A DNA stretch of 42,243 bases, from contig QHUU01000081.1 in NCBI GenBank assembly GCA_003222155.1, positions 1-42,243 on the forward strand, read 5' to 3'. Below the pieces are notes generated by a model, which worked only from the letters and a program-made list of their open reading frames with translations, had not been told where the DNA came from and made no database searches. Below are positions 24,921 through 35,695 of this stretch, one piece after another; the first letter of the stretch is position 1, and each line of letters starts with the position of its first letter. The position numbers and the translations under genes were made by a program. Source of the stretch: Gemmatimonadota bacterium (GTDB lineage: Bacteria > Gemmatimonadota > Gemmatimonadetes > Gemmatimonadales > GWC2-71-9).

Positions 24921-24931
24921 CTCCCCGCCGT

Positions 24932-25004
24932 GGCGGTATCGTCTAGGGGACTAGGACGGAGCCCTCTCAAGGCTCAAACACGGGTTCGAATCCCGTTACC
25001 GCTA
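24932..25004 (+). tRNA. tRNA-Glu (anticodon CTC)
   Basis: The cloverleaf folds by hand: acceptor GGCGGTA with TACCGCT (G-T at the first pair), D arm with the Glu-typical GTCTAGGGGACTAGGAC, anticodon stem GAGCC/GGCTC with loop CTCTCAA (anticodon CTC), T arm ACGGG-TTCGAAT-CCCGT and discriminator A. CCA is not encoded. Confidence 0.95.
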
Positions 25005-25010
25005 TGACAG

Positions 25011-25056
25011 AAAAAAGACGTCGAGTAGAGACGTCGAACAGAGACGTCAAGCAGGG
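25011..25056 (+). repeat. GACGTC array 1 between the two tRNA-Glu genes
   Basis: Three GACGTC hexamers start at 25017, 25030 and 25043, exactly 13 bases apart, embedded in a loose unit GAGACGTCGARYA. The same unit recurs in array 2 after the second tRNA-Glu. The spacer is transcribed with the tRNAs, so the repeats may act at RNA level. Confidence 0.75.
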
Positions 25057-25063
25057 GTCGTTC

Positions 25064-25135
25064 GCCCCCATCGTCTAACGGTCAGGACACCACTCTTTCA
25101 AGGTGGGAACAGGAGTTCGATTCTCCTTGGGGGCA
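25064..25135 (+). tRNA. tRNA-Glu (anticodon TTC)
   Basis: Acceptor GCCCCCA pairs with TGGGGGC, D arm TCGTCTAACGGTCAGGAC, anticodon stem CCACT/GGTGG with loop CTTTCAA (anticodon TTC), T arm AGGAG-TTCGATT-CTCCT and discriminator A. CCA is not encoded. It is 59 bases after the first tRNA-Glu. Confidence 0.95.
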
Positions 25136-25140
25136 GAAGC

Positions 25141-25255
25141 AAAAAGACGTCGAGCAGGAGCGTCGCGCAACGGCGTCGCGCGAACACGTCCAGCAACGTC
25201 TTTGCGACGTCTCTGTGTGACGTTTTTGCGTGACGCCTTTGCTTGACGTCTCTTT
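25141..25255 (+). repeat. GACGTC array 2: long inverted repeat with 13-bp period
   Basis: The left arm has CGTC-containing hexamers at 25146, 25159, 25172 and 25185; the right arm has GACGNC/T hexamers at 25206, 25219, 25232 and 25245. Both arms keep a 13-base period, and every left/right pair is symmetric about 25198, so the region is one 115-base palindrome with eight hexamers. Most arm mismatches are G in the left arm facing T in the right arm, which would be G-U pairs in a + strand RNA. A T-rich tail (TCTCTTTTCTTT) follows. It could be a terminator or an RNase III processing stem. Confidence 0.75.
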
Positions 25256-25261
25256 TCTTTC

Positions 25262-25301
25262 AGGGCCGATAGCTCAACTGGCAGAGCAAACTGACTCTTA
25301 A
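25262..25301 (+). other. attL: tRNA-Lys 5' half left by element integration
   Basis: Forty bases match the 5' half of the intact tRNA-Lys at 35622-35660, from one base before the acceptor stem through the anticodon loop CTCTTAA, then the match stops abruptly. There is one extra A (GAGCAAACTG against GAGCAACTG), so this copy is decaying. It is the original chromosomal 5' half of the third tRNA of the cluster, cut off by integration in the anticodon loop. It marks the left end of a roughly 10.4-kb element. Confidence 0.88.
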
Positions 25302-25431
25302 CGACCTCCGTGCGTGTCCGCCGAGTTCCGCGGGAATCCGTCCCTATCCCGCAACGTCCGCTTCCAACAAGAGTTGCGTCAAGTCCGTGTCCGCGGACGT
25401 TCGTCGGCGTCCGCGTGCGTCCCAGTGATAC

Positions 25432-25450
25432 TGCCCGCATTTTTGCCCAC
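25432..25450 (+). repeat. 19-bp direct repeat, left copy (possible integrase arm site)
   Basis: TGCCCGCATTTTTGCCCAC occurs here, about 131 bases inside the left crossover, and again at 35525-35543, about 117 bases inside the right one, in the same orientation. Position near both ends suggests arm-type binding sites for the integrase or a partner. The stretch 25302-25431 before it is also rich in GTCCG/CGTCCGCG words, including the palindrome GTCCGCGGAC. Confidence 0.6.
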
Positions 25451-25515
25451 CATCATGGCGGTGCGACCCGTTGCCGGAAGCGGACTGGCGAAGCGCGTTA
25501 TTATGGCAGCGCTAC

Positions 25516-25929
25516 CTATCCCGATACCTCCGCCGGCAGCCGTGCCCGGACGGACTGGAGTACCTCTCGCGCGACGGCCAGCGCCTCCTCCGCTTCGGCT
25601 GGTGTCGGTTCCCCCGGCTCGCCCGGGTATCGGAACCGCCAGGCGTATTGCGTCAGAACCACCGCGCGGTCTACGACGGACTTCAGGGCGGGATCGAGGG
25701 CCAGGCACGCCTCGCCCAGCTCCTCGAGGTTGTGCGTCTTGCGGAAGGGCCTGTCGTGCCAGGTCAGGAATGCCTTGAATGCTTTTTCTGCGGTTTGCTG
25801 GGAGTGGAACGTCAGGTCCCCCCGTAGCGGCGGATGCGCCGTCTGGTCGTGTTCGGCGGCTCGGAGATCGTTGTCCGCCTTCTGCAGCCACGCCCTTGTG
25901 TCGGCGACCCGGGCGGGGTCATGCGGCAT
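25516..25929 (-). CDS. HEPN-domain protein (toxin of HEPN/MNT pair)
   Basis: A 137-residue all-helical protein. From ATG 25929 it reads MPHDPARVADTRAWLQKADND, the usual HEPN opening. Helix 2 has TFHSQQTAEKAFKAFL, and the loop RPFRKTHNLEEL carries the Arg-x5-His that fits the RX4-6H ribonuclease motif. The final helix is EEALAVAREVLQSVRARL. The start overlaps the end of the MNT gene by 11 bases, the normal arrangement for HEPN/MNT (HepT/MntA) toxin-antitoxin modules, where the nucleotidyltransferase silences the HEPN RNase. A longer frame to 26061 exists but covers the MNT gene. It is the first cargo gene inside the left end. Confidence 0.88.
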   Translation of the reverse strand: MPHDPARVADTRAWLQKADNDLRAAEHDQTAHPPLRGDLTFHSQQTAEKAFKAFLTWHDRPFRKTHNLEELGEACLALDPALKSVVDRAVVLTQYAWRFRYPGEPGEPTPAEAEEALAVAREVLQSVRARLPAEVSG

Positions 25930-26272
25930 GCAGGAGCACGCCTTCGCGGACCACCGTGGCGGGCAGGGAGGCCTGAAGGTGAAGGCGCTCCTCGAAGTAG
26001 GTCCGTGTGCAGACCAGGACGTCGGCGGCCGCCCCCGTGCCACGCAGCGCCTCGTAGGCAAGCCGGCTGCCGCGCCGCTGTGCCGCGGCCTCGTCGGGGA
26101 CCACGAGCAATAGATCGTAATCGCTGTCCGGCCCCGCCTCGGCGCGCGCCTTGGAGCCGAAGAGGTACACCAGCATCGGATGGTACGCCGCCACGAGCCG
26201 GCGCACGATCTCGGCGAGCAGCGGATCGCTCAACGGCTTCGCTGTGCGTAGCGAGGAAGAGTCGCGCGTCAT
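25919..26272 (-). CDS. MNT-type nucleotidyltransferase (antitoxin of HEPN/MNT pair)
   Basis: A 117-residue minimal nucleotidyltransferase. The signature GSKARAEAGPDSDYDLLLVV gives the Gly-Ser and the Asp-x-Asp metal ligands of the polymerase-beta fold, so it is likely active. In characterised MntA proteins this domain AMPylates or polyAMPylates a Tyr near the HEPN active site to block the toxin. The following helix and a last strand (ADVLVCTRTYFEERL) complete the fold. The ATG at 26272 begins MTRDSSSLRTAK. It precedes and overlaps the HEPN gene. Confidence 0.88.
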   Translation of the reverse strand: MTRDSSSLRTAKPLSDPLLAEIVRRLVAAYHPMLVYLFGSKARAEAGPDSDYDLLLVVPDEAAAQRRGSRLAYEALRGTGAAADVLVCTRTYFEERLHLQASLPATVVREGVLLHAA

Positions 26273-26429
26273 CGGGTTTCGGGAGCTGACATCGCTGCCA
26301 ATCTAGGCTCGCGCAGGGCTCGCGACCAGCACCGGTGGGGAAGGATTGGCCAGCCAGTCTTTCCATTGATGCGCGGGCTGACTAACCTGCTCCCCTGATC
26401 GGGGCGTGTTGAGAGCCCCGACACATCAG

Positions 26430-26540
26430 CCCGAGCAGCGAACGCCGCGGGCGGTCCTCATCCGCACGGTCGCCAGCTGGATCGAAGAGTGGTACGACCG
26501 ACGCCGTCGTCATTCCTCGCTCGGCCAGGCAGCTTCTTGA
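26430..26540 (+). pseudogene. IS3-family transposase C-terminal remnant
   Basis: A short open stretch translates to ...VASWIEEWYDRRRRHSSLGQ and stops at 26538-26540. This matches the typical end of IS3-family OrfB (pattern 'YIxxYNxxRRHSxLGxxxP'). No upstream DDE domain, OrfA or inverted repeats remain, so it is a dead fragment. It shows that other insertions happened in the element's cargo zone. The rest of 26273-26604 holds nothing else I can identify. Confidence 0.7.
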
Positions 26541-26604
26541 GTCGTTGTGAATATCGACTACGATGACCGTTTCGCGCTTTCTGATTCTGGAAGGGGAGCG
26601 TCAG

Positions 26605-28083
26605 TTATGGGCCAAAGACGGGCACAGACGTGGGATGAATCGCGGTTGAACCGTCGCCCAGCTCGCCCTCGCTATTGTCCCCCCAACAGTACGCCGCACC
26701 CTGAGGGGTTACCCCACACGTGTGGAGATACCCAGTACTGACGGTGGCGAACGTCAATCCTCCGGAGACCAGAAGGGGGGTGGGGTTCGGGGCGTTGGTG
26801 AGCGGGGTGGCAGCGTTGCCGAGCTGGCCATAGCCGTTGTATCCCCAGCAGTAGGCGGCGCCGCCGGTTGTCACGCCGCACGTGGCCCCCTGCCCGGCGC
26901 TAATGGCGGCGAAGGTCAGTGCACCGGAGACGGCAACGGGTGATGTGCTCTTTTGGGTCGTGCCGTTCCCCAGCTCGCCTGAGCCGTTCGATCCCCAACA
27001 GTACGCCGCGCCGTCTCGAGTCAGACCGCACGCGTGAGAGTCGCCCGCGCTCAGCGCGACGAAGTTCAGCCCGCCGGCCACCGGTACCGGGACACCGCTC
27101 GACGTCAAGTTTCCGTTTCCGAGCTCGCCAGAAACGTTGTCACCCCAGCAGTACGCTGCACCGCTGGTCGTCAGGCCACAGGAGTATTGGTACCCGGCAG
27201 CAATTGCAACGAAAGACGACTCACCGGAGACAAGGACCGGGCTGCTGTTCACGTAGCTGATGGGGGCGCCGTTGCCGAGCTCGCCGGCGATGTTATTGCC
27301 CCAGCAGTAGATCGCTCCGCCCGTCGCCAGGCCACACGAGTGGTACACACCGGCGCTCACCGCGTTGAACGGGAGCCCACCGGTCACCGCCACGGGCGTT
27401 GGGCTGGCCGTGGTATCGCCGTTGCCGAGCTGGCCGTTGAAGTTGGCCCCCCAGCAGTAGGCGGCGCCGCCGGGCGTCACACCACAGGTGTGTTCGAACC
27501 CGCCACTGAGAACGGCATAGGACAGCCCGCCATCCACGGGCATGGGCGTATCGTATATGGGTTTCGCGGATTGCTTGAGGCTGTCCACGGCGCCGGCACC
27601 GAGCATGCCATTGAGGTTCGACCCCCAGCAGAACCCGGCGCCACGCGTGGTAACGGCGCAGGTGTTGAGGAAGAATCCGACGCTGATGTGCGCGAAGGCG
27701 CCATGCGGAACGGCAGCTTGGGCGTTGATCGTGTCGCTTACCGCGGTTGTTCCGGCGACGCTCCTGATGGTCGCCACGGTCTGGCCGGGCGCCATCGCCC
27801 GGAAATGGTACACCTGCTCCTGGCCTGGCGGCCCTTCCGGGTTATACACCGTCCGGAAATCCATCCCGAGAAACGCAACGGCGGACGACGACAAGGAGGG
27901 CAAGCTGTCATACTCGACTCCTCCTCCATACTCGACGCCTCCGGGCGTGATGTCGGCCCGCTGGGCTACGGAGAGCGACAGCGTTTGCAGATAGCGCACG
28001 GAGGCTTCGGTGGTAATCCCGGTGGGGTGATCCGTGCAAGCCGCCGCTGCCAACGGGAAAAGGGCAAAAAAGAATCTCTTCAC
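26605..28083 (-). CDS. RCC1-repeat lipoprotein
   Basis: A 492-residue exported lipoprotein (signal MKRFFFALFPLAAAAC, lipobox Cys 16). After an ~130-residue beta-rich N-terminal region come about seven RCC1-type repeats of about 50 residues, with consensus 'AVSAGxxHTCGVTxxGAAYCWGxNxxGQLGNG'. Examples: FEHTCGVTPGGAAYCWG, YHSCGLATGGAIYCWG, YLHTCGVTPQGAAYCWG. They should form a seven-bladed propeller. Each repeat keeps two Cys (TCGV and YCWG), which suggests a disulfide in every blade, fitting an exported protein. RCC1 lipoproteins of this type are common in Gemmatimonadota; the function is unknown. It is divergent from the DUF4145 gene. Confidence 0.88.
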   Translation of the reverse strand: MKRFFFALFPLAAAACTDHPTGITTEASVRYLQTLSLSVAQRADITPGGVEYGGGVEYDSLPSLSSSAVAFLGMDFRTVYNPEGPPGQEQVYHFRAMAPGQTVATIRSVAGTTAVSDTINAQAAVPHGAFAHISVGFFLNTCAVTTRGAGFCWGSNLNGMLGAGAVDSLKQSAKPIYDTPMPVDGGLSYAVLSGGFEHTCGVTPGGAAYCWGANFNGQLGNGDTTASPTPVAVTGGLPFNAVSAGVYHSCGLATGGAIYCWGNNIAGELGNGAPISYVNSSPVLVSGESSFVAIAAGYQYSCGLTTSGAAYCWGDNVSGELGNGNLTSSGVPVPVAGGLNFVALSAGDSHACGLTRDGAAYCWGSNGSGELGNGTTQKSTSPVAVSGALTFAAISAGQGATCGVTTGGAAYCWGYNGYGQLGNAATPLTNAPNPTPLLVSGGLTFATVSTGYLHTCGVTPQGAAYCWGDNSEGELGDGSTAIHPTSVPVFGP

Positions 28084-28330
28084 CTTGTGCTCTTTCTGAT
28101 TGCGCTCTTCCGAGATCTGTCCACCCTACCAGAACCTACCCACGCGCCGTTCGATGGCCAAGCGGTGCGCTCCCGGTCCCCGGGGCTCCCGCCACGTGCG
28201 AAGAACTAATAGCGTGAGCAACTACGGAACGGGCCGAAACGCGAGAGGCAGACGGTCGGGTGCGGTCGCTGGATCGCCCCTCTCAGCTGTATTTTGAAGC
28301 TGGGCGGGTGGCATCCACGGAGGCTCCAGG

Positions 28331-29008
28331 GTGGCTTCGAAGCGCAACTACCACGCGGGCCGTGGCAAGACGATCAAGGTTGTGTGCGCCTCGTGCAATG
28401 GTCCCACGCAGCACGATATTGTCTACTCCGTGACCGACGAGGACGGCGACGACAACGTGCAATGGTGGGGCTATTACCAGGTGCTGGAGTGTAGGGGGTG
28501 CGAGCGCATCAGCTTTCGCTACAACTGGCAGAGCAGCGAGGATCTCGAGCCATCCGAAAACGGCGCCTGGGAGGCCGTCGATCATGAGACCCTCTACCCC
28601 TCTCGCATCGCGGGCGCAGCGCCGATGGCAGATAGCCACCTGCTTCCTCCTCAGCTAAGGCGAATCTATGAGGAGACGCACTCGGCTTTGAGCGCTAACC
28701 TGCCTGTGATCGCGGGAATTGGAGTACGCGCCATCGTGGAGACGCTCTGCGCAGAAAAAAAAGCGAAAGGCGGCGACCTAAAGCAGAAGATAGACGACCT
28801 CGTGAAGCAGGGCGTCATAACGCCTGCCGGCGGAGAGATCCTCCATAGTCTTCGCCTCATGGGAAACGAGGCAGCCCACGAGGTGAAGCCCCAGAAGCCT
28901 GAGGATCTCTTGCTCGCCATGCGAGTCGTGGAACACGCGCTCCAGGGAGTCTACATCCTTCCCAGGCAAGCGGAGCACCTCCCTTCGGGACGAACAGTCC
29001 AGCCATAG
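28331..29008 (+). CDS. DUF4145-domain protein
   Basis: A 225-residue cytoplasmic protein. The N-terminus has two Cys pairs (CASC and CRGC) forming a zinc ribbon, and the C-terminal ~130 residues match DUF4145: PPQLRRIYEETHSAL, AGIGVRAIVETLCAEK, LKQKIDDLVKQGVITPAG, ILHSLRLMGNEAAHEVKP. The Arg/Glu and GN-x-AAH positions are the family's signature; the fold is HEPN-like. DUF4145 genes are often found in defence and mobile contexts, sometimes fused to restriction enzymes. The start is GTG at 28331, seven bases after GGAGG. It leads a small operon with the two following reading frames. Confidence 0.85.
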   Translation: MASKRNYHAGRGKTIKVVCASCNGPTQHDIVYSVTDEDGDDNVQWWGYYQVLECRGCERISFRYNWQSSEDLEPSENGAWEAVDHETLYPSRIAGAAPMADSHLLPPQLRRIYEETHSALSANLPVIAGIGVRAIVETLCAEKKAKGGDLKQKIDDLVKQGVITPAGGEILHSLRLMGNEAAHEVKPQKPEDLLLAMRVVEHALQGVYILPRQAEHLPSGRTVQP

Positions 29009-29045
29009 GGAAACCACTTGACTTGCCACCTACCGTGAGGGTTCG

Positions 29046-29267
29046 ATGCTCCCTAGGCCGCTAGACCCGAAGAAGTACTACATCGGCACGCGCTGCGGCT
29101 TTTGCCACCACTACCTGGCCTTCGTCGAAGATCCGAGCGCGGGGAAGGTGAAGCTGGTGTACGAGCGACCCCTCGTCACGCTGACGTGCCAGAGCTGCGG
29201 ACGACCCGCGAACTACCCGACGGCCGGGCTCCACTCGTTTCGGGGCGACGCCCCGGCGTTGAACTAG
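29046..29267 (+). CDS. Small zinc-ribbon protein (first part of a split frame)
   Basis: A 73-residue protein with a four-Cys ribbon: CGFCH near residue 18 and CQSC near residue 50. A GAGGG site precedes the ATG. It ends at a TAG (29265-29267) and the same frame then stays open for 248 more codons to 30011, with no usable start for the first 74. So it may be the N-terminal domain of a single protein interrupted by an amber codon. By itself it resembles stand-alone zinc-ribbon proteins of mobile elements; I do not recognise a family. Confidence 0.6.
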   Translation: MLPRPLDPKKYYIGTRCGFCHHYLAFVEDPSAGKVKLVYERPLVTLTCQSCGRPANYPTAGLHSFRGDAPALN

Positions 29268-30011
29268 AAACTTACGCCAGCGCAAAGCCCCACACCTGGA
29301 CACCTCTTCGGTGTCCCGTGGACCGATGCCGCGATCATCGCCGCCATTCTCGGCGGTGCATTTGCCCTCGCCAAGGAAACGCTCTCGTTCGGCTTTCGCC
29401 TGCTCGAAGGCGCGTGGGAACGCCGTCGCCTGAGGCACAGCCTCTACGCACGGGTTTGGCACGACCACTTCCAGATCGCCACGGGGGCTGTGAAGGCGAT
29501 GCGCGCTTGGCCTTATGACGAGTTCGCCGCGGGCGGGTGGGCCGTTCCGCCACCGCCGGTGGACTTCCTCCGGCGGCACGACGTGCCGCTCGCGGCCGAC
29601 GTCCTGCAGCTGCTGGCCGACTCGCCGGACACCGTGACGGCCTACCTGCACGCCACGATTCAGCGCGACTACGCGGGCGCCGTGGCCAAGACCGAGGAGG
29701 ACGAGTTCGGCCGCATCACCTATGAATATCCCCGCACGCGAAACGTCCTCCGAACCCTGCTCGAAAACGTCGTCAACGCGCTCGAGGAGCTGGCAGGTCA
29801 TCTGCCTGCGAGGCCCTGGTGGAGGAAGAAGACGAAATTGGGGCCGCGGGAGATCTGCGAGGCGAACGTCAAGTACTTTCGCGCGGAGCTGGAGAAGGTG
29901 CCGGCGATCACGAAGCAGGAGGTGCTGCAGATCTCGATCAGGGCTCACGCCCAGCTTAAACGCTTGAAGGCAGAGGAATCCTCAGGCGAGGGCGACCCTA
30001 CGGCGTCGTGA
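29268..30011 (+). pseudogene. Membrane-anchored hypothetical, start missing or amber-split
   Basis: This 247-codon open stretch follows the TAG at 29265 in the same frame. It opens with a likely membrane helix (DAAIIAAILGGAFALAKE) and a basic segment (WERRRLRHSLYARVWHDHF), then a mostly helical soluble domain (VLQLLADSPDTVTAYLHATI, NVLRTLLENVVNALEELAG, EVLQISIRAHAQLKRL). The first in-frame GTG is at 29490 (VKAMRAWPYDEF), which would discard the membrane helix. I see coding character throughout, so either translation reads through the amber, the start is a rare codon, or this is a gene broken by a point mutation. No family recognised. Confidence 0.5.
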
Positions 30012-30148
30012 ATGCCGCCGGCCCCTGGCATCGAGCTGGCATCGCTACTTCCATCAACCGGCACGAACGTGCCGTCGCGCGAGCGGTTCGATAGCTAGGA
30101 CGTGCCCCCGCGTGGACGGGCGCGCCCCGCTGGCGGAATCTCAAAATC

Positions 30149-30168
30149 CCTTGCGTGAGCACGCAAGG
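30149..30168 (+). other. Candidate oriT nic-site hairpin
   Basis: CCTTGCGTGAGCACGCAAGG is a perfect 8-bp inverted repeat with a GAGC loop, followed directly by TGCGGGCAGACC. Relaxases of the MobA type usually nick just 3' of such a hairpin in a GTGCG-like sequence, so the junction near 30169-30176 is a candidate nic site. It lies upstream of mobC and mobA in the only long non-coding stretch of the element. Confidence 0.5.
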
Positions 30169-30232
30169 TGCGGGCAGACCCCGGCTCCCTGTTGTGATCC
30201 TCTCTAGTCAACGGCGTGAGCACCCCTGCACC

Positions 30233-30271
30233 GCGAGGTAATCGTGCGAGGTAATCGTGCGAGGTAATCGT
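30233..30271 (+). repeat. Three perfect 13-bp iterons
   Basis: GCGAGGTAATCGT is repeated three times in tandem without gaps (30233-30245, 30246-30258, 30259-30271). Such iterons usually bind a plasmid or relaxosome protein (for example MobC or an accessory factor). They sit between the candidate nic hairpin and the mob genes. The count is too low and the unit too short for CRISPR. Confidence 0.8.
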
Positions 30272-30281
30272 GCAAGCAAGA

Positions 30282-30327
30282 GGAGCGATATCGGTGCACG
30301 CGCTGGTGCGCGGCACCGAATCGCTCC
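30282..30327 (+). repeat. Inverted repeat in the oriT region
   Basis: Left arm GGAGCGATATCGGTGC (30282-30297) and right arm GGCACCGAATCGCTCC (30312-30327) can pair over about 15 bp with one bulged A, with a 14-base loop. It follows the iterons directly and is a second candidate relaxosome structure. Confidence 0.6.
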
Positions 30328-30392
30328 TGCCCCGCCCATTCGCGCGCGGCCGCGCGCTCAAGGGCGAGCAAGCCCCTAACCCCACGGGCACG

Positions 30393-30634
30393 CTCAGCCC
30401 ATCCGGGCCTCTTTACTTGTAGAGGGGTGTGTGTCGCGACCACCGCTGAGACCCGGGCCGAATCCCCGCGGGCACGGTCGGGGTCATTCGGGACTATTCC
30501 CTTATGGAGGGGTGTGTCGCGACCGCCCCGATGAGACGCTGGGCCGAATCCCGGAGTACCTAAGTAAGGGAACCTTGCGTGCCGTCGACGCTGACACGCT
30601 GGGCCCCATCCGGGACTACTTGTAAGTAGGGGGG
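30393..30634 (+). repeat. Four degenerate ~37-base hairpin repeats upstream of mobC
   Basis: Four related blocks lie at about 30393-30429, 30478-30514, 30538-30574 and 30598-30634. Each has a GGGC/TC..ATYCGGG part, then a small dyad (for example CTACTTGTAAGTAG in the fourth, CTCTTTACTTGTAGAG in the first) and a G-rich tail. Between them, GTGTGTCGCGACC and TGAGAC-GGGCCGAATCC are shared by the first two. Together they make a roughly 240-base repeat cluster with no coding character; it may be part of oriT, a control region for the mob genes, or a replication-like origin. Confidence 0.55.
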
Positions 30635-30800
30635 GACAACTCGTGAACAAGACGCCAGAACGGTCTGCCGAATTGCGAGGTGCTTGGAAGTAGGAAGAGG
30701 TACCTCGTTACGAGCGGGTCAGAACAGTCCGCCGCAACTGGAAGGACTTGTCCACAACGAGGGTCGCGTCGTAGCGCTTCCCGCCCATCCTAAGAGGGCC

Positions 30801-31118
30801 ATGCCCGATCGCCGGACCGCCGCAAAGCTGATTCGCTTCCATCCCGACGAACTCCGCGAGATCACGGAATGCGCCCGGCGCTCAGGCCTCACCCCGGCCC
30901 GCTTCATCCGCGAGACCGCGCTCGGCGCCACCCCAAAGGCCCGGGCCCACGCAGCGGACCAGCCCCTCCTCCGTGAACTCGCCCGCGTCGGCCGCAGCCT
31001 CGAGCACCTCGCCCGCTGCGCCAGGGCCAGCCAGGACGCCGCCCTCGCGGCGAAGACGACCGCTGCCCTGGAACGGCACCACGCGCTGGTCCGGCACGTC
31101 GTGCAGCGCCATCGCTAG
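30801..31118 (+). CDS. mobC: MobC-like relaxosome accessory protein
   Basis: A 105-residue DNA-binding protein that would open oriT for the relaxase. It starts with an Arc/MetJ-like ribbon-helix-helix (KLIRFHPDELREITECARRSGLTPARFIRETALG), followed by a helical tail with LARVGRSLEHLARCA, both typical for MobC. I chose the ATG at 30801 (after AAGAGGG) over an upstream start at 30684, whose first 39 residues have no coding character. It lies 17 bases before the relaxase gene. Confidence 0.85.
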   Translation: MPDRRTAAKLIRFHPDELREITECARRSGLTPARFIRETALGATPKARAHAADQPLLRELARVGRSLEHLARCARASQDAALAAKTTAALERHHALVRHVVQRHR

Positions 31119-31135
31119 AAGGGAGGATCCACCCC

Positions 31136-32680
31136 GTGATCGCGACGACATCGTCCGGCCGCCGCTTCGCCGTGCTGGCCCGCTACCTGCTGCGCGGCCG
31201 CTCGGGAGCGGAGACCGAGCGCGTGGCCTGGACCGCCGGGCGGAACTTGGGCCTCGACGACCCCGAGCTGGCGGCGGTGCTCATGCAAGCCACCGCCGAC
31301 GAGAACCCGCGGGTCGAGGTGCCCGTCTATCACCTGACGATCAACTTCGACCCCAACGATCCGGTGACACCCACCGAGATGCAGGCCGTGGCCGACCGCG
31401 TCCTGCGGGATCTCGGCTTGGCCGAGCACCAGGCCCTGATGGTGGCCCACCAGGACCGGGCGCATCCGCATGTGCACGTGATGGTGAACCGGGTGCACCC
31501 GGAGACGGGCGTGGCGTGGGAGCGCTGGCAGGACCGCCCCCGGATCGAGCGCACGCTCCGGGAGCTCGAACGCGAGTTGGGACTCCGCGAGGTGGCGGGC
31601 CGGCTCTACCAGCTCGACGGCCAGGAGGCGCCGGAGCCCGCCCGGCTGACGAGCGGGGAGCGCCGGCAGGCCGAGCGCACGGGCGAGCCCGCGTTTCCTG
31701 ATCGCGTCCGGGCCCATCTGCCCGAGTTGCGCGCCGCCCGCTCGTGGACCGAGCTCGAGGAGCGGCTCGCCGCCCATGGGCTCCGGCTCGAGCGCAAGGG
31801 CCAGGGGCTCGTGATCACGGACGGCACGCATCAGGTCAAGGCGTCGCGCGTGGCACGCGACCTCTCTCTCCGCCGGCTGGAGGAGCGCTTCCGCGCGCCC
31901 TATCCGGGCCGGGAGGAGGAGCAGGCCCGGCGCGAGCCCCCGAGCCGCGACGTGGCCCAGCTCCAGGGGGCCCTGGCCGAATACGAGCGCGTGGCGGCGC
32001 TGGAGCACGAGCGGGACCGGGCGACGAAGGAGCTCTATGCCGCACAGGCCCGGCGGTCCAACCTTGACCACGCGATCACGGCGGTGCAGGCAGCGGAGAA
32101 GGACTTCGACCGCGCGCTGGCCCGGGTCTATCGGGATCCGCCAGCCGCGCGGGAGCAGTTCCGGAACGCCGTCGCGCAAGCCGGGCCGGAGCGCGCGGCG
32201 GAATGGCTCACCGCCGAACCGGAGCGTTTTGGCGCGCTCCGGACCGTCGACCGGCCGCGGGCCCTGGGGCTCGGCGTCCGGCGCGACGACGCGCCCGCGC
32301 GCCTCGAGGCGCGCCGGGCTGCCGCCTGTGGGCGGGCGCTCGCCGAAACGGAGCGCCGCGCCGCCGCACTCGCCGGACGGGACGCGCCGGACCGGCAGGA
32401 GTCCAGCGTGGGGCCGTGGGTCGAGCGCGCCCTCGCGCACGTGAAGGAGCGCATCGGTGAGACGGAGCGGCTGCTGGACCAGCTGAAGCAGGAACTGCGA
32501 CGGGCGCCGCACCTCGAGCTCCTGCAGCGCAGCATCGCCCGGGTGGTCGCCCGGCTCGAGCCGCGCGAGATCGCCCAACTGCGGCTCCTGGTCACCGCCC
32601 CACAGGTCGCGATCGCGTTCCAAGCGCGGCGCGTGCTCAAGGACCTGCTGCTCGGCCGCGAGCAGGAGGACGATCGCTGA
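31136..32680 (+). CDS. mobA: MobA/VirD2-like relaxase
   Basis: A 514-residue relaxase that should nick oriT and pilot the strand. The N-terminal third is the catalytic domain: RRFAVLARYLLRG (Tyr17 is the likely nucleophile), RVEVPVYHLTINFDPND, and the metal-binding motif HQDRAHPHVHVMVNRVHPETG with the HUH-type histidines. Then comes WERWQDRPRIERTLRELERELGL, conserved in this relaxase group. The C-terminal half is long, charged and coiled (for example EQARREPPSRDVAQLQ, LAHVKERIGETERLLDQLKQEL), with no helicase motifs. Start GTG at 31136 with GGAGG upstream. Its stop overlaps the next start (TGATG at 32678-32682). Confidence 0.9.
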   Translation: MIATTSSGRRFAVLARYLLRGRSGAETERVAWTAGRNLGLDDPELAAVLMQATADENPRVEVPVYHLTINFDPNDPVTPTEMQAVADRVLRDLGLAEHQALMVAHQDRAHPHVHVMVNRVHPETGVAWERWQDRPRIERTLRELERELGLREVAGRLYQLDGQEAPEPARLTSGERRQAERTGEPAFPDRVRAHLPELRAARSWTELEERLAAHGLRLERKGQGLVITDGTHQVKASRVARDLSLRRLEERFRAPYPGREEEQARREPPSRDVAQLQGALAEYERVAALEHERDRATKELYAAQARRSNLDHAITAVQAAEKDFDRALARVYRDPPAAREQFRNAVAQAGPERAAEWLTAEPERFGALRTVDRPRALGLGVRRDDAPARLEARRAAACGRALAETERRAAALAGRDAPDRQESSVGPWVERALAHVKERIGETERLLDQLKQELRRAPHLELLQRSIARVVARLEPREIAQLRLLVTAPQVAIAFQARRVLKDLLLGREQEDDR

Positions 32681-33000
32681 TGGCGGTGCACTCGCGGGGT
32701 CGACAAATTGTGGAACCGGCAGACGGTGATCAACTGGATGCATGGGCGGTGGCTTCAGAGGTCAGTGGGCGAAAAGGTGGAAGGAGACGCTGGGCGCCAC
32801 CCGAAAGTGTACGCGTGACGAACACCTTGATTCCTGGAGAGCGGCTTCTCCGGGCTGCCGACGTCGCCGCCATCCTCAGTGTGCCCACCAAGCGTGTCTA
32901 CGAGCTCGGCATACCTGCCGTGCGATTGTCGTCTCGCTGTCTGCGATGGCGGTGCTCTGATGTCGAGTGCTGGGTCGAGGAAAGGAGGGTCTCGCCGTGA
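32680..33000 (+). CDS. Excisionase-like helix-turn-helix protein
   Basis: A 106-residue protein overlapping mobA by one base (TGATG). The conserved part is the last 60 residues: LLRAADVAAILSVPTKRVYELGI-x-AVRLSSRCLRWRCSDVECWVEERR, a MerR-type winged HTH as in phage and plasmid excisionases (HTH_17 type). The first 45 residues are low-complexity and may be an extension created by the coupled start; an internal GTG at 32815 (VTNTLIPGERLLRAADV) is a good alternative. It sits directly before the integrase, the usual place for a recombination directionality factor. Confidence 0.72.
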   Translation: MAVHSRGRQIVEPADGDQLDAWAVASEVSGRKGGRRRWAPPESVRVTNTLIPGERLLRAADVAAILSVPTKRVYELGIPAVRLSSRCLRWRCSDVECWVEERRVSP

Positions 33001-34253
33001 AACCTCATCGTCGCCTTGGCCACGCCACCTACGAGGTCGACGTGCGTTGGCAAGGGTACCCCCGGCTGCGGCTGGCTTGCGGCACGACTAACAAAGCACG
33101 CGCTGTCGCTATGTGCCGGACCCTCGCCGCCCTCCGCGACGCAGGGCGGCGCGATCTGCTGGGTCTGCTCGCCCAGCATCGGCTGAGGCTCGCCGATGTC
33201 CACGACGCCTTTCTCAGCGATCCCGGCGCGATCGAGCACCTAAAAGCCAAGGCCGTAAGCCCGCGCTTGGGCGACTTGGTCGAGCGTTGGTTAGGCTGGC
33301 TCGCATCGCCGGCTGGTATCAGCCCTCGCACCCGACGAAAGTACTCTGAGAAGACACGCCGGCAGTACGAGGGAAGCTGGAACGGGTTCTTCTCAGTCTT
33401 GGCCTGCGGGCCCGACGCCCGCTTAGCCGACGTCAACCGCGGCTTTGTCCTCGAATACCGGCGCTTGCGCGCGCGTGCGACCGGTGGGAAGCGCCGCAAG
33501 ACCATGCCGGGCCGCTCCGTTAGCGCAGCGACCCTTAATCGTGATTTCGCAGCCCTGGGCGCGTTCCTGACGTGGCTGAGAGACATCGAAGGCGTCGCCA
33601 TCGAGCGGCCGCCGTTACCGCGTGAGCGAGAGTCGAAGGGGCGTGAACGCTGGCTCTCAGCTGAAGAGTTGGCGACGTTCCAGCACGCCTGTCCGGAGGA
33701 ATGGTGGCCCTTCTTCGCAACGCTGTTCTATACCGGGGCGCGACTGGGAGAAGTGCAGGGGCTGCGCGGGGCCGATGTCCTACTCTCGGCAAGACGGATC
33801 TCGATCCATGAAGCGGACCGGCGGGTTAAGACGAAGGAAGCCGTGCGCGACCTACCGATCGCCGGGCCTTTGGAGCGCGCTCTCGGGAAGCACCTGGCGC
33901 GTGTCGCCCCGGGGCCAAACGACCTCGTTTTCGGAGACGAGTTCCAGCGGTACGGCATCGTCCGATACGTGTGGGACGCGACCTGCAGGGCAGCTGGCAT
34001 CTCGGGAGCGCGGCCGCACGATGCGCGGCATACGTTCGCCGTACATGCCGCGCAGGCTGGGGTGCCGATCGTTCGGATGCAGAAGCTTCTCGGCCACGCC
34101 ACCGCCACAATGACCCCGCGTTATATGAAGCACGCTCCGGAAGCGTTTCTCGACGAAGACGCAGCCAGTGTGGCGGCGCACCTCGGCGGGGCCAAGAATG
34201 CCGAAGCGGAAGCTCGCGTCACAGCGGCACGCCGCGAGTTGAAGCAGGCCTAA
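32997..34253 (+). CDS. int: Tyrosine recombinase / integrase
   Basis: A 418-residue integrase that would catalyse insertion into tRNA-Lys. The start is GTG at 32997, overlapping the xis-like stop (GTGA), with a GGAGG site. The N-terminal part (about 60-220) is a SAM-like core-binding domain (WLASPAGISPRTRRKYSEKTRRQ). The catalytic domain has the box I Arg (FYTGARLGEVQGLRGADV), Lys (RRVKTKEAVRDLPI), box II HxxR (PHDARHTFAVHAA), the box II His in LGHATATMTPRY and the nucleophile Tyr in PRYMKH. All residues are present, so it is probably active. It is coupled with mobA and the xis-like gene. Confidence 0.93.
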   Translation: MKPHRRLGHATYEVDVRWQGYPRLRLACGTTNKARAVAMCRTLAALRDAGRRDLLGLLAQHRLRLADVHDAFLSDPGAIEHLKAKAVSPRLGDLVERWLGWLASPAGISPRTRRKYSEKTRRQYEGSWNGFFSVLACGPDARLADVNRGFVLEYRRLRARATGGKRRKTMPGRSVSAATLNRDFAALGAFLTWLRDIEGVAIERPPLPRERESKGRERWLSAEELATFQHACPEEWWPFFATLFYTGARLGEVQGLRGADVLLSARRISIHEADRRVKTKEAVRDLPIAGPLERALGKHLARVAPGPNDLVFGDEFQRYGIVRYVWDATCRAAGISGARPHDARHTFAVHAAQAGVPIVRMQKLLGHATATMTPRYMKHAPEAFLDEDAASVAAHLGGAKNAEAEARVTAARRELKQA

Positions 34254-34541
34254 GTCGCGATCAGAGGGAACGCGCACTCTCGCGGAACACGACGGAGCCA
34301 GTCGAAAGGACGTCTTGATTTGTGCTCGAAGAAGCTAGCCGAGCTGGCACGGGGTGACTGAAAAAAGTAGGGATGTTGCTGGTTAAGAGTAGCAAAGCGG
34401 CGGCCGCGACCCCCCGTTCGGCGTTTCACGCCATTCGGCAGCTGGGCTGGGACGGGAGTTGGTCCAGGGTTTGAGTCGGTGCGGAGAGCGATCCGGGGGC
34501 GTTGGGCCCCAACGCGCTTGCCTACCTCTTGGAGACGAGCT
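34254..34541. other. Intergenic stretch after the integrase
   Basis: These 288 bases between the integrase stop and the lipoprotein start hold no recognisable gene, tRNA or repeat. A good ribosome site (GGAGACGAGCT) lies at the right end for the next gene. Confidence 0.5.
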
Positions 34542-35366
34542 ATGCGCCTGACCTGCACGCGCCTCTTGTTGCTTTGCCTTGTCCCGGCCTGCCAGGCGCC
34601 CGACTTAGACACCTTTGCGAAGGAGCACACCACGCGCGAAGAGCGAGCGTTCGGACAGAGGGACCTAGAGCTGCTCTCCACCGCCCAGGTCGACTCAGCC
34701 GTCGGCCTACTCGCCACGGACCTGCGGAGCGACACGGTGGTCCGCGCCCTCCAGCAAGTCGGCGCACTGCTGCGAGAAGCGCGCCTCGACTCGCTGCACG
34801 TGATTGGGGTCAACGTCAACAACGTCGGGAATGATGTCCACGAGCTGAATCTCAGCTATGAAGTGACAACCACGCGCGGCCGCTGGCTTACGACCAACGT
34901 CGCGACTCGATCGGTACACGGCCGTGTGTCCGTCATCGGTGTCTCTGCCCATCCCATCCCCGGCCCTCTTGAGGAAATCAACACCTTCACGCTACGGGGG
35001 AAGCCCCTGGTCCACTACGTCATACTCGTCTTTGCAGCGCTTGTCCCGCTATTCATCTTGGGGGTCGAGGTCGTTTGCCTCCGCACGTCGGTCCGCCGCA
35101 GGTGGGCATGGATGCTGCTAATCCTGTTGGGCGGTCCTGTCACGGTGCTCAACTGGACCACTGGGGAAATGCACACCAACGAGTTCACTGTGCTGCTATT
35201 AGGCGCCGGGTGGTTTCGGGCGAGCGTGTACGGACCAGTGATCCTCCAGGTCGCGTTCCCCATTGGTGCTGCAATCTTCCTAGCGCGGCGCTACCAGCTC
35301 ATCCTGCAGGCCCGTCACACCACGAAGGCCGGGTACACCAAGCTCAATCTACCTGGGGGATCCTAG
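34542..35366 (+). CDS. Lipoprotein with C-terminal membrane helices
   Basis: A 274-residue protein of unknown family. The ATG at 34542 has a GGAG site and a lipoprotein signal (MRLTCTRLLLLCLVPAC, lipobox Cys 17). Residues about 20-155 are soluble and mixed alpha/beta (SAVGLLATDLRSDTVVRALQ, LSYEVTTTRGRWLTTNVATRSVHG). The C-terminal 120 residues hold four hydrophobic segments (YVILVFAALVPLFILGVEVV, WMLLILLGGPVTVLN, TVLLLGAGWFRASVYG, VILQVAFPIGAAIFLA). It is the last cargo gene before the right end. A longer frame from 34479 is less likely. Confidence 0.65.
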   Translation: MRLTCTRLLLLCLVPACQAPDLDTFAKEHTTREERAFGQRDLELLSTAQVDSAVGLLATDLRSDTVVRALQQVGALLREARLDSLHVIGVNVNNVGNDVHELNLSYEVTTTRGRWLTTNVATRSVHGRVSVIGVSAHPIPGPLEEINTFTLRGKPLVHYVILVFAALVPLFILGVEVVCLRTSVRRRWAWMLLILLGGPVTVLNWTTGEMHTNEFTVLLLGAGWFRASVYGPVILQVAFPIGAAIFLARRYQLILQARHTTKAGYTKLNLPGGS

Positions 35367-35524
35367 CTGGTCGGCCTTCGAGTGGTCCCGCCTCGCGCCT
35401 GCCTCCCACGTTCTGAAGATCTTTTTCCTGTATCCCTCCGGACTCGACGGAGGGGATGCGGTCGAGCGGGACGCGGGACCAACCCACGCCGGAGTGGAAA
35501 AGGGGCATGATCGCGGCCCGAAAG

Positions 35525-35543
35525 TGCCCGCATTTTTGCCCAC
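35525..35543 (+). repeat. 19-bp direct repeat, right copy
   Basis: A perfect copy of TGCCCGCATTTTTGCCCAC from 25432-25450, 117 bases inside the right crossover. The region 35367-35622 holds no gene; it has a weak hairpin (CCCTCCG...CGGAGGG near 35434-35455), this repeat and the tRNA-Lys promoter. Confidence 0.6.
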
Positions 35544-35582
35544 TCAGCTCGGGGCACGGATGGCGGCATGGGGCCCGCACCC

Positions 35583-35611
35583 TTGCGTAAGCTTTTCGGG
35601 CTGACGATCTT
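35583..35611 (+). promoter_or_regulatory. Element-borne tRNA-Lys promoter
   Basis: TTGCGT (35583-35588), 17 bases, GATCTT (35606-35611), then 11 bases to the tRNA start at 35623. The layout matches the tRNA-Glu promoter at 24891. Because it lies left of the crossover, it comes from the mobile element, so expression of tRNA-Lys now depends on the element. Confidence 0.55.
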
Positions 35612-35621
35612 CCGCCGCCCT

Positions 35622-35695
<74 letters not shown>

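Follow-up and report, generated by a model that had tools for sequence, protein, structure and literature searches.

A 13-nucleotide tandem repeat between tRNA genes of a Gemmatimonadota bacterium and its likely place in a dispersed modular repeat family

Results

The window, i.e. the whole stretch of DNA analysed here, comprises 42,243 nucleotides of a Gemmatimonadota contig (QHUU01000081.1). On its plus strand lies a tRNA-Glu(CTC) gene (24931..25005; ARAGORN, Rfam RF00005), the upstream neighbour of a short repeat designated array 1. This array opens with an A-rich head recognised from the sequence and the head profile (AGAAAAAAGA, 25009..25018) and continues as a single arm of three 13-mer units (25019..25057, plus strand; unit chain of 40.3 bits). 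It is followed by tRNA-Glu(TTC) (25064..25135, plus strand; ARAGORN, Rfam) and, directly after this gene, by a long palindrome. The palindrome consists of an A-rich left head (GAAGCAAAAAGA, 25136..25147, plus strand), of a sequence type common to both hairpin feet and to single arrays; a left arm of four forward units starting at 25148, 25161, 25174 and 25187 (25148..25199, plus strand); a right arm of four reverse-complement units (25197..25248, minus strand; unit chain of 63.2 bits); and a T-rich right foot identified by sequence and foot profile (TCTCTTTTCTTTCA, 25249..25262, plus strand), which is the complement of the A-rich head and resembles the U tract of a terminator. The element stops at the 5′ half of a tRNA-Lys gene (25263..25301, plus strand). 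This half gene is the left copy of a 38-39 bp repeat, and its right copy, with a 97% match, is part of an intact tRNA-Lys(CTT) at 35623-35695. In relatives, an intact tRNA-Lys is found immediately after the hairpin spacer.

The original prediction, made from the sequence of the window, had described eight cores, four per arm, keeping a 13-base period and symmetric about position 25198, and every part of this description was reproduced. CGTC cores start at 25148, 25161, 25174 and 25187 and GACG cores at 25206, 25219, 25232 and 25245, with the centre of symmetry at 25198. Shifting each arm by 13 positions gave identities of 0.69 (left) and 0.78 (right), whereas other lags gave 0.09-0.41, so that the period is exactly 13. 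Gapless 54-bp arms centred on 25198 matched at 39 of 54 positions, which makes this the strongest inverted repeat of that size among all centres of the window (mean score 15.3, sd 3.6; next non-overlapping centre, 31). Folding of the plus-strand RNA from 25136 to 25262 gave a stable stem of -71.7 kcal/mol (z -7.7, 0 of 200 shuffles) compared with -58.9 kcal/mol for the minus strand (z -4.8). A strand-neutral alignment of the hairpin contained 43 Watson-Crick pairs, 9 G.U, 3 A.C and 3 other pairs, and thus the predicted G-U wobble signature holds for the window copy. An Rfam search of the window returned tRNAs only and no RNA family for the hairpin. As predicted, the repeat is not a CRISPR, which would have identical repeats of 24-48 bp and unique spacers at one locus, since its 13-mers stand head to tail without spacers at dozens of loci.

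We noted separately that 25263-35695 is likely to be an integrative mobilisable element of about 10.4 kb inserted in tRNA-Lys(CTT). The 38-39 bp repeat of the tRNA-Lys 5′ half lies at both of its ends (25263-25301 and 35622-35660), and it codes for a tyrosine integrase (32967-34253, plus strand), a MobA/VirD2 relaxase (31136-32680, plus strand), a HEPN protein (25516-26061, minus strand), a DUF4145 protein and an RCC1-repeat protein. The intact tRNA-Lys(CTT) is now at the far end of this element, away from the tRNA-Glu cluster.

Copies of the repeat in the same genome were collected from searches and from retrieved stretches of that genome. A similarity search with the region gave 20 matches, and a two-unit pattern matched 65 times against 6 for its reversed control. 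Scored with a unit matrix, the retrieved DNA yielded 47 tandem chains at 24 bits or more and the reversed DNA yielded none; in the same scan isolated single units showed no excess over the control. The genome holds about 35 elements with about 200 units, and relatives within one family of Gemmatimonadota carry comparable sets. Chance or local slippage as the origin of the palindrome was excluded by these pattern counts and unit chains, taken together with the fold z-score and the window-best symmetry. From this and related genomes we parsed 114 elements, at loci picked by likeness to the window copy or by pattern, in genomes that are MAGs and with genes called by a home-made codon score. Sixty-six were hairpins with forward units followed by reverse units, three had the reverse order, and about 40 were single arrays of 2-8 units. 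Four plus four units was the commonest arm size of the hairpins.

The elements have a common anatomy, namely an A-rich head of about 13 nt followed by tandem 13-mers, typically 3-8 of them, with the own-species consensus CGT[C/A][G/A][C/A][G/A]C[A/G][A/G][A/C][G/A][A/G]. The head, which ends in AAAGA or similar, is found in both feet of the hairpins when these are read inward as well as at the start of single arrays, and several of its positions are 60-70% A, compared with 15% after other stop codons. Single arrays finish with CGT at the tail, beyond which similarity is lost. Since hairpin feet and single arrays share the head, the sequences show that the basic module is head plus units, and that the hairpin is an inverted dimer of this module with its heads outward. 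As an observation in its own right, the units of the genome include two subtypes, CGTC..GC and CGT[A/T].CAC, in which unit positions 4 and 7 seem to covary, and this may reflect two reading modes.

The elements start a few bases after gene 3′ ends, whether these are stop codons, tRNAs or apparently a 5S rRNA, the last being identified by eye. Facing gene 3′ ends were at most 24 nt away in 69 of 72 cases, with a modal distance of 3 nt after the stop, and distances to 5′ ends were scattered. The hairpins occupied 48 codirectional, 12 convergent and 6 divergent contexts, and the neighbours of elements also included core genes such as citrate synthase, ftsX, glnA and a kdsD/kpsF-type isomerase. 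Two further settings were observed. A three-unit array codes for a protein C-terminus at L125:4967-5005 and L228:1554-1592, in the dialect of each species (GC in G000, GG in G006), and a five-unit array at L149:5135-5199, L175 and L201 apparently opens a reading frame (ATGAGCGACGTCACGCAAAACC...) conserved in three species.

A stable stem with a U tract at gene 3′ ends is the sequence feature of an intrinsic terminator, and the hairpins could accordingly be read as bidirectional terminators with oversized stems, their left feet being A-rich, their right feet T-rich, and the stems standing directly after stop codons, convergent gene pairs included. We consider this reading rather doubtful. Many stems lie only 4-17 nt ahead of the next start codon or tRNA, where a promoter outside the stem has no room; the tRNA-Glu and tRNA-Lys genes are 13-18 nt from the stem on either side, and read-through of the stem is inferred from this spacing. 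Moreover, single arrays, which are unable to terminate in this way, have an A-rich head of the same strength, and terminators have no need of a genome-wide consensus.

In order to assess pairing between the arms, compensatory changes were counted among close orthologues under a null model that holds the change rate of each unit position fixed. Covariance gave the predicted stem partial support, with 24 compensatory changes against 17.5 expected (P = 0.023) and 474 standard pairs against 461 expected (P = 0.002). The uncorrected comparison, 24 against 5.8, fell mostly away at these fixed rates, and covariation was rejected as proof of RNA structure. The arms of one hairpin matched each other slightly better than arms of different hairpins in the same genome (0.676 against 0.651; 0 of 2000 shuffles; own genome, P = 0.0015). 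Pairing thus comes mostly from both arms keeping one 13-mer consensus, with a small but significant excess.

The wobble signature was carried by the tRNA spacers. Over all hairpins G.U and A.C were equal (317:304), and along the transcript the ratio was 79:43 in tRNA spacers and 169:147 behind codirectional protein genes. In 11 of 12 tRNA spacers the tRNA strand formed the more stable fold of the two strands (P = 0.006; P values for these related spacers are optimistic, since six of them are orthologues and not independent), and the coding strand did so in 22 of 37 protein spacers, which was not significant (P = 0.32). The RNA reading is therefore favoured for the tRNA spacers, but it does not define the family.

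These figures bear on the claim of the original prediction that a stem is selected on the tRNA precursor. Among six species whose orthologous tRNA-Glu/Lys spacer has a hairpin, the stem is indeed kept, and the strand and wobble biases of the tRNA spacers agree with it. As a general account, a tRNA-only feature was nevertheless excluded because the majority of copies stand behind protein genes, some apparently also behind 5S rRNA, and the wobble bias is weak there. The genome's own tRNA-Thr copy (L144:8290) is biased in the opposite direction, and G009, G010 and G012 have the same tRNA-Glu/Glu/Lys cluster with no stem. A processing stem specific to tRNA precursors is therefore quite improbable as the explanation. 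Alternatively, the G.U bias might reflect a mutational asymmetry of the strands, in which C turns to T on the non-template strand, with no selection on RNA. In line with this, A gains at the expense of G in the 3′ arm of tRNA spacers, read in unit orientation (G fraction 0.446, compared with 0.549 in the 5′ arm), but the 5′ arm shows no surplus of C-to-T changes of the unit (3/170 against 3/164, a test of little power because the positions are conserved), and we regard this origin as unlikely.

Comparison of flanks showed that species of the genera g1, g16 and g37 share element sites. At orthologous sites a hairpin mostly matched a hairpin and a single array mostly matched a single array; L129/L172/L183/L202 and L152/L223/L191/L213/L176 are examples of a kept type. 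In the tRNA-Glu/Glu/Lys cluster, stems were found in G001, G005, G006, G007 and G024, and they were reduced or different in G008 and G003. It had also been suggested that array 1 could compete for the right arm of the palindrome. Array 1 does carry the same unit as the hairpin and is complementary to the right arm over 18 nt at 94%, but the arrangement is not conserved, its orthologous spacer having a hairpin of its own, full in G001 and G007 and short in G005. Arrays with one arm only, for which the long stem is impossible, are conserved as single arrays, which speaks against a stem on the tRNA precursor and indicates that the hairpin accounts for no more than part of the function.

Presence and absence differed at a few sites, and empty sites compared at three loci had no clear target duplication. 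Together with the dispersed copies and the defined head, such differences could suggest a miniature mobile element, either a MITE or a REP moved by a tyrosine transposase, but this is very improbable given that sites are common to several genera. The genome's single Y1 transposase gene (C112) has no array in its retrieved 1.5-kb flanks, so the RAYT association typical of REPs is absent here and mobilisation of a REP by RAYT is unsupported. Phage and plasmid collections contained no record resembling the hairpin, and a three-unit pattern hit 36 viral contigs, in nearly all of them a single time, which was read as chance.

When the phylum was scanned with the three-unit pattern, matches were dense only in the organism's own family (g1, g16, g30, and a few in others). 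Spread to other families was rejected, as matches there were sparse or looked like perfect local tandem repeats and control matches were similar. In the sister family f2, the genomes G264, G275, G134 and G166 have perfect 13-bp tandem repeats with CGTC cores; some backwards controls give similar counts, and these are perhaps unrelated satellites. Two hairpins between tRNA-Glu genes, L162 (G019) at 1674-1826 and L159 (G003) at 1488-1636, have a period near 13 with another unit spelling (CGTAGAGGGANNN), from which we infer that the family is probably wider than our search patterns show. On balance, these comparisons lead us to favour the view that the palindrome belongs to a modular repeat family that is dispersed and vertically inherited in one family of Gemmatimonadota.

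Each genome spells the unit uniformly, but the spelling varies from species to species (CGTCnnGC, CGTCnnGG and others). Most genomes of g1 and g16 are rich in CGTCnnGC (65, 73, 48, 50 and 91 matches, the first three in G000, G001 and G007). G006 and G009 have 13 and 6 matches to the GC form and 50 and 49 to the GG form, and G044 of g30 has 56 GG matches with the consensus CGTCGAGG. Units are spelled CGTAGAGG or CGTTGAGG in G019 and CGTCGAGC in g37. At the tRNA locus G006 is 89% identical to G000, and as its g1 relatives mostly use GC, the dialect switch in G006 is derived; G006 was placed by this flank identity, rpoB not having been recovered from it, and the other genomes by an rpoB tree. At orthologous sites the units of G006 are in register with those of G000 and G001 and differ mainly at the dialect position, the array that forms the 3′ terminus of a coding sequence included. 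Single arrays have the same dialect as the rest of their genome. The in-register change in G006 is our strongest evidence that the sequence of the unit itself, beyond the stem alone, is under a genome-wide homogenising force.

It is possible, on lesser odds than the explanation preferred below, that the arrays are DNA sites for a sequence-specific protein, such as an uptake receptor or a nucleoid, segregation or topology factor. The hairpins would then be a by-product of inverted site pairs at gene ends, and dialect switches would follow a change in reader specificity or molecular drive. The genome-wide dialects, the in-register switch (including the C-terminus array in G000 and G006) and the shared dialect of single arrays agree with such sites, as does the occurrence of dialects and of inverted pairs at gene ends among the DNA uptake sequences (DUS) of Neisseriaceae (PMC3630211). 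Against it stand the low number of elements, the lack of isolated units above the control, the strict 13-nt tandem spacing, which is unlike that of DUS, and the fold bias towards the tRNA strand, which would be unexpected for a DNA site.

Discussion

The explanation that we prefer, by a modest degree, is that these are transcribed 3′-end hairpins of the REP/BIME kind whose unit is in addition homogenised by a sequence-specific process. The hairpin dimers would be transcribed and often read through into the gene that starts within 20 nt. As RNA, the long imperfect stems may act in the manner of REP/BIME elements on the 3′ side of the upstream transcript, by protecting, processing or ending it, and the tRNA-Glu 3′ trailers in the window may be among the 3′ sides acted upon. 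At convergent pairs, the T-rich feet could possibly end transcripts arriving from either side. Since arrays incapable of forming a stem share the dialect, uniformity of the 13-mer is presumably kept by a process that recognises sequence, which could be a trans-acting protein reading the unit or biased copying between loci. More tentatively, we propose that a trans-acting factor specific to Gemmatimonadota reads 13-bp tandem arrays behind core genes, and that a shift of its specificity between sister species may convert all chromosomal arrays in situ to a new dialect.

To our knowledge, no function of extragenic palindromic repeats has been agreed upon in the decades since they were recognised. 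The present family offers three new handles on them: a fixed 13-nt module, single-arm and inverted-dimer forms that are separately conserved at shared sites, and genome-wide dialect switches among close relatives. Because a reader should change with the dialect, the dialects allow a direct test of whether the repeat is read by anything. The family would also account for the unusually long stems between tRNA genes of this lineage. In the literature searched we found no published description of 13-nt arrays, or of Gemmatimonadota repeats or terminators of this type.

REPs are described as GTAG- and CGTC-tagged single palindromes of 20-40 bp with stems of 5-13 bp, in an account that does not mention Gemmatimonadota (PMC3733652). 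REP/BIME elements are dispersed and extragenic, lie behind ORFs, mainly in codirectional or convergent gaps with few divergent ones, form inverted dimers and are in some cases located inside genes, and their G-T pairing has been read as a mark of transcription (PMC3733652). The 13-mer hairpins resemble them in being dispersed behind genes in codirectional and convergent contexts, in forming inverted dimers, in their G-T pairing and in having some copies in genes. They differ in that the Gemmatimonadota unit is a non-palindromic tandem 13-mer, which is not itself a stem-loop and pairs only between inverted arrays, with arms of about 52 bp, an A-rich head and dialects that differ at shared sites.

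The DUS of Neisseriaceae are short 10-12-mer motifs with genome-specific dialects that track phylogeny and with inverted pairs tied to terminators (PMC3630211). The 13-mer is likewise short, has species dialects as DUS do and forms inverted pairs at gene ends. However, DUS number hundreds to thousands of mostly single copies with no fixed-spacing tandem, whereas the present genome has about 200 units, grouped into about 35 elements, with the 65 two-unit matches and no surplus of isolated units. Because the unit departs from the definition of a REP and its copy number from that of a DUS, the sequences place this family with neither. With bidirectional terminators it shares an A-rich foot, a GC-containing stem, a T-rich foot and a position at gene 3′ ends and in convergent pairs, but its stem is about five times longer, modular, built on a genome-wide consensus, and found within apparent operons and tRNA clusters.
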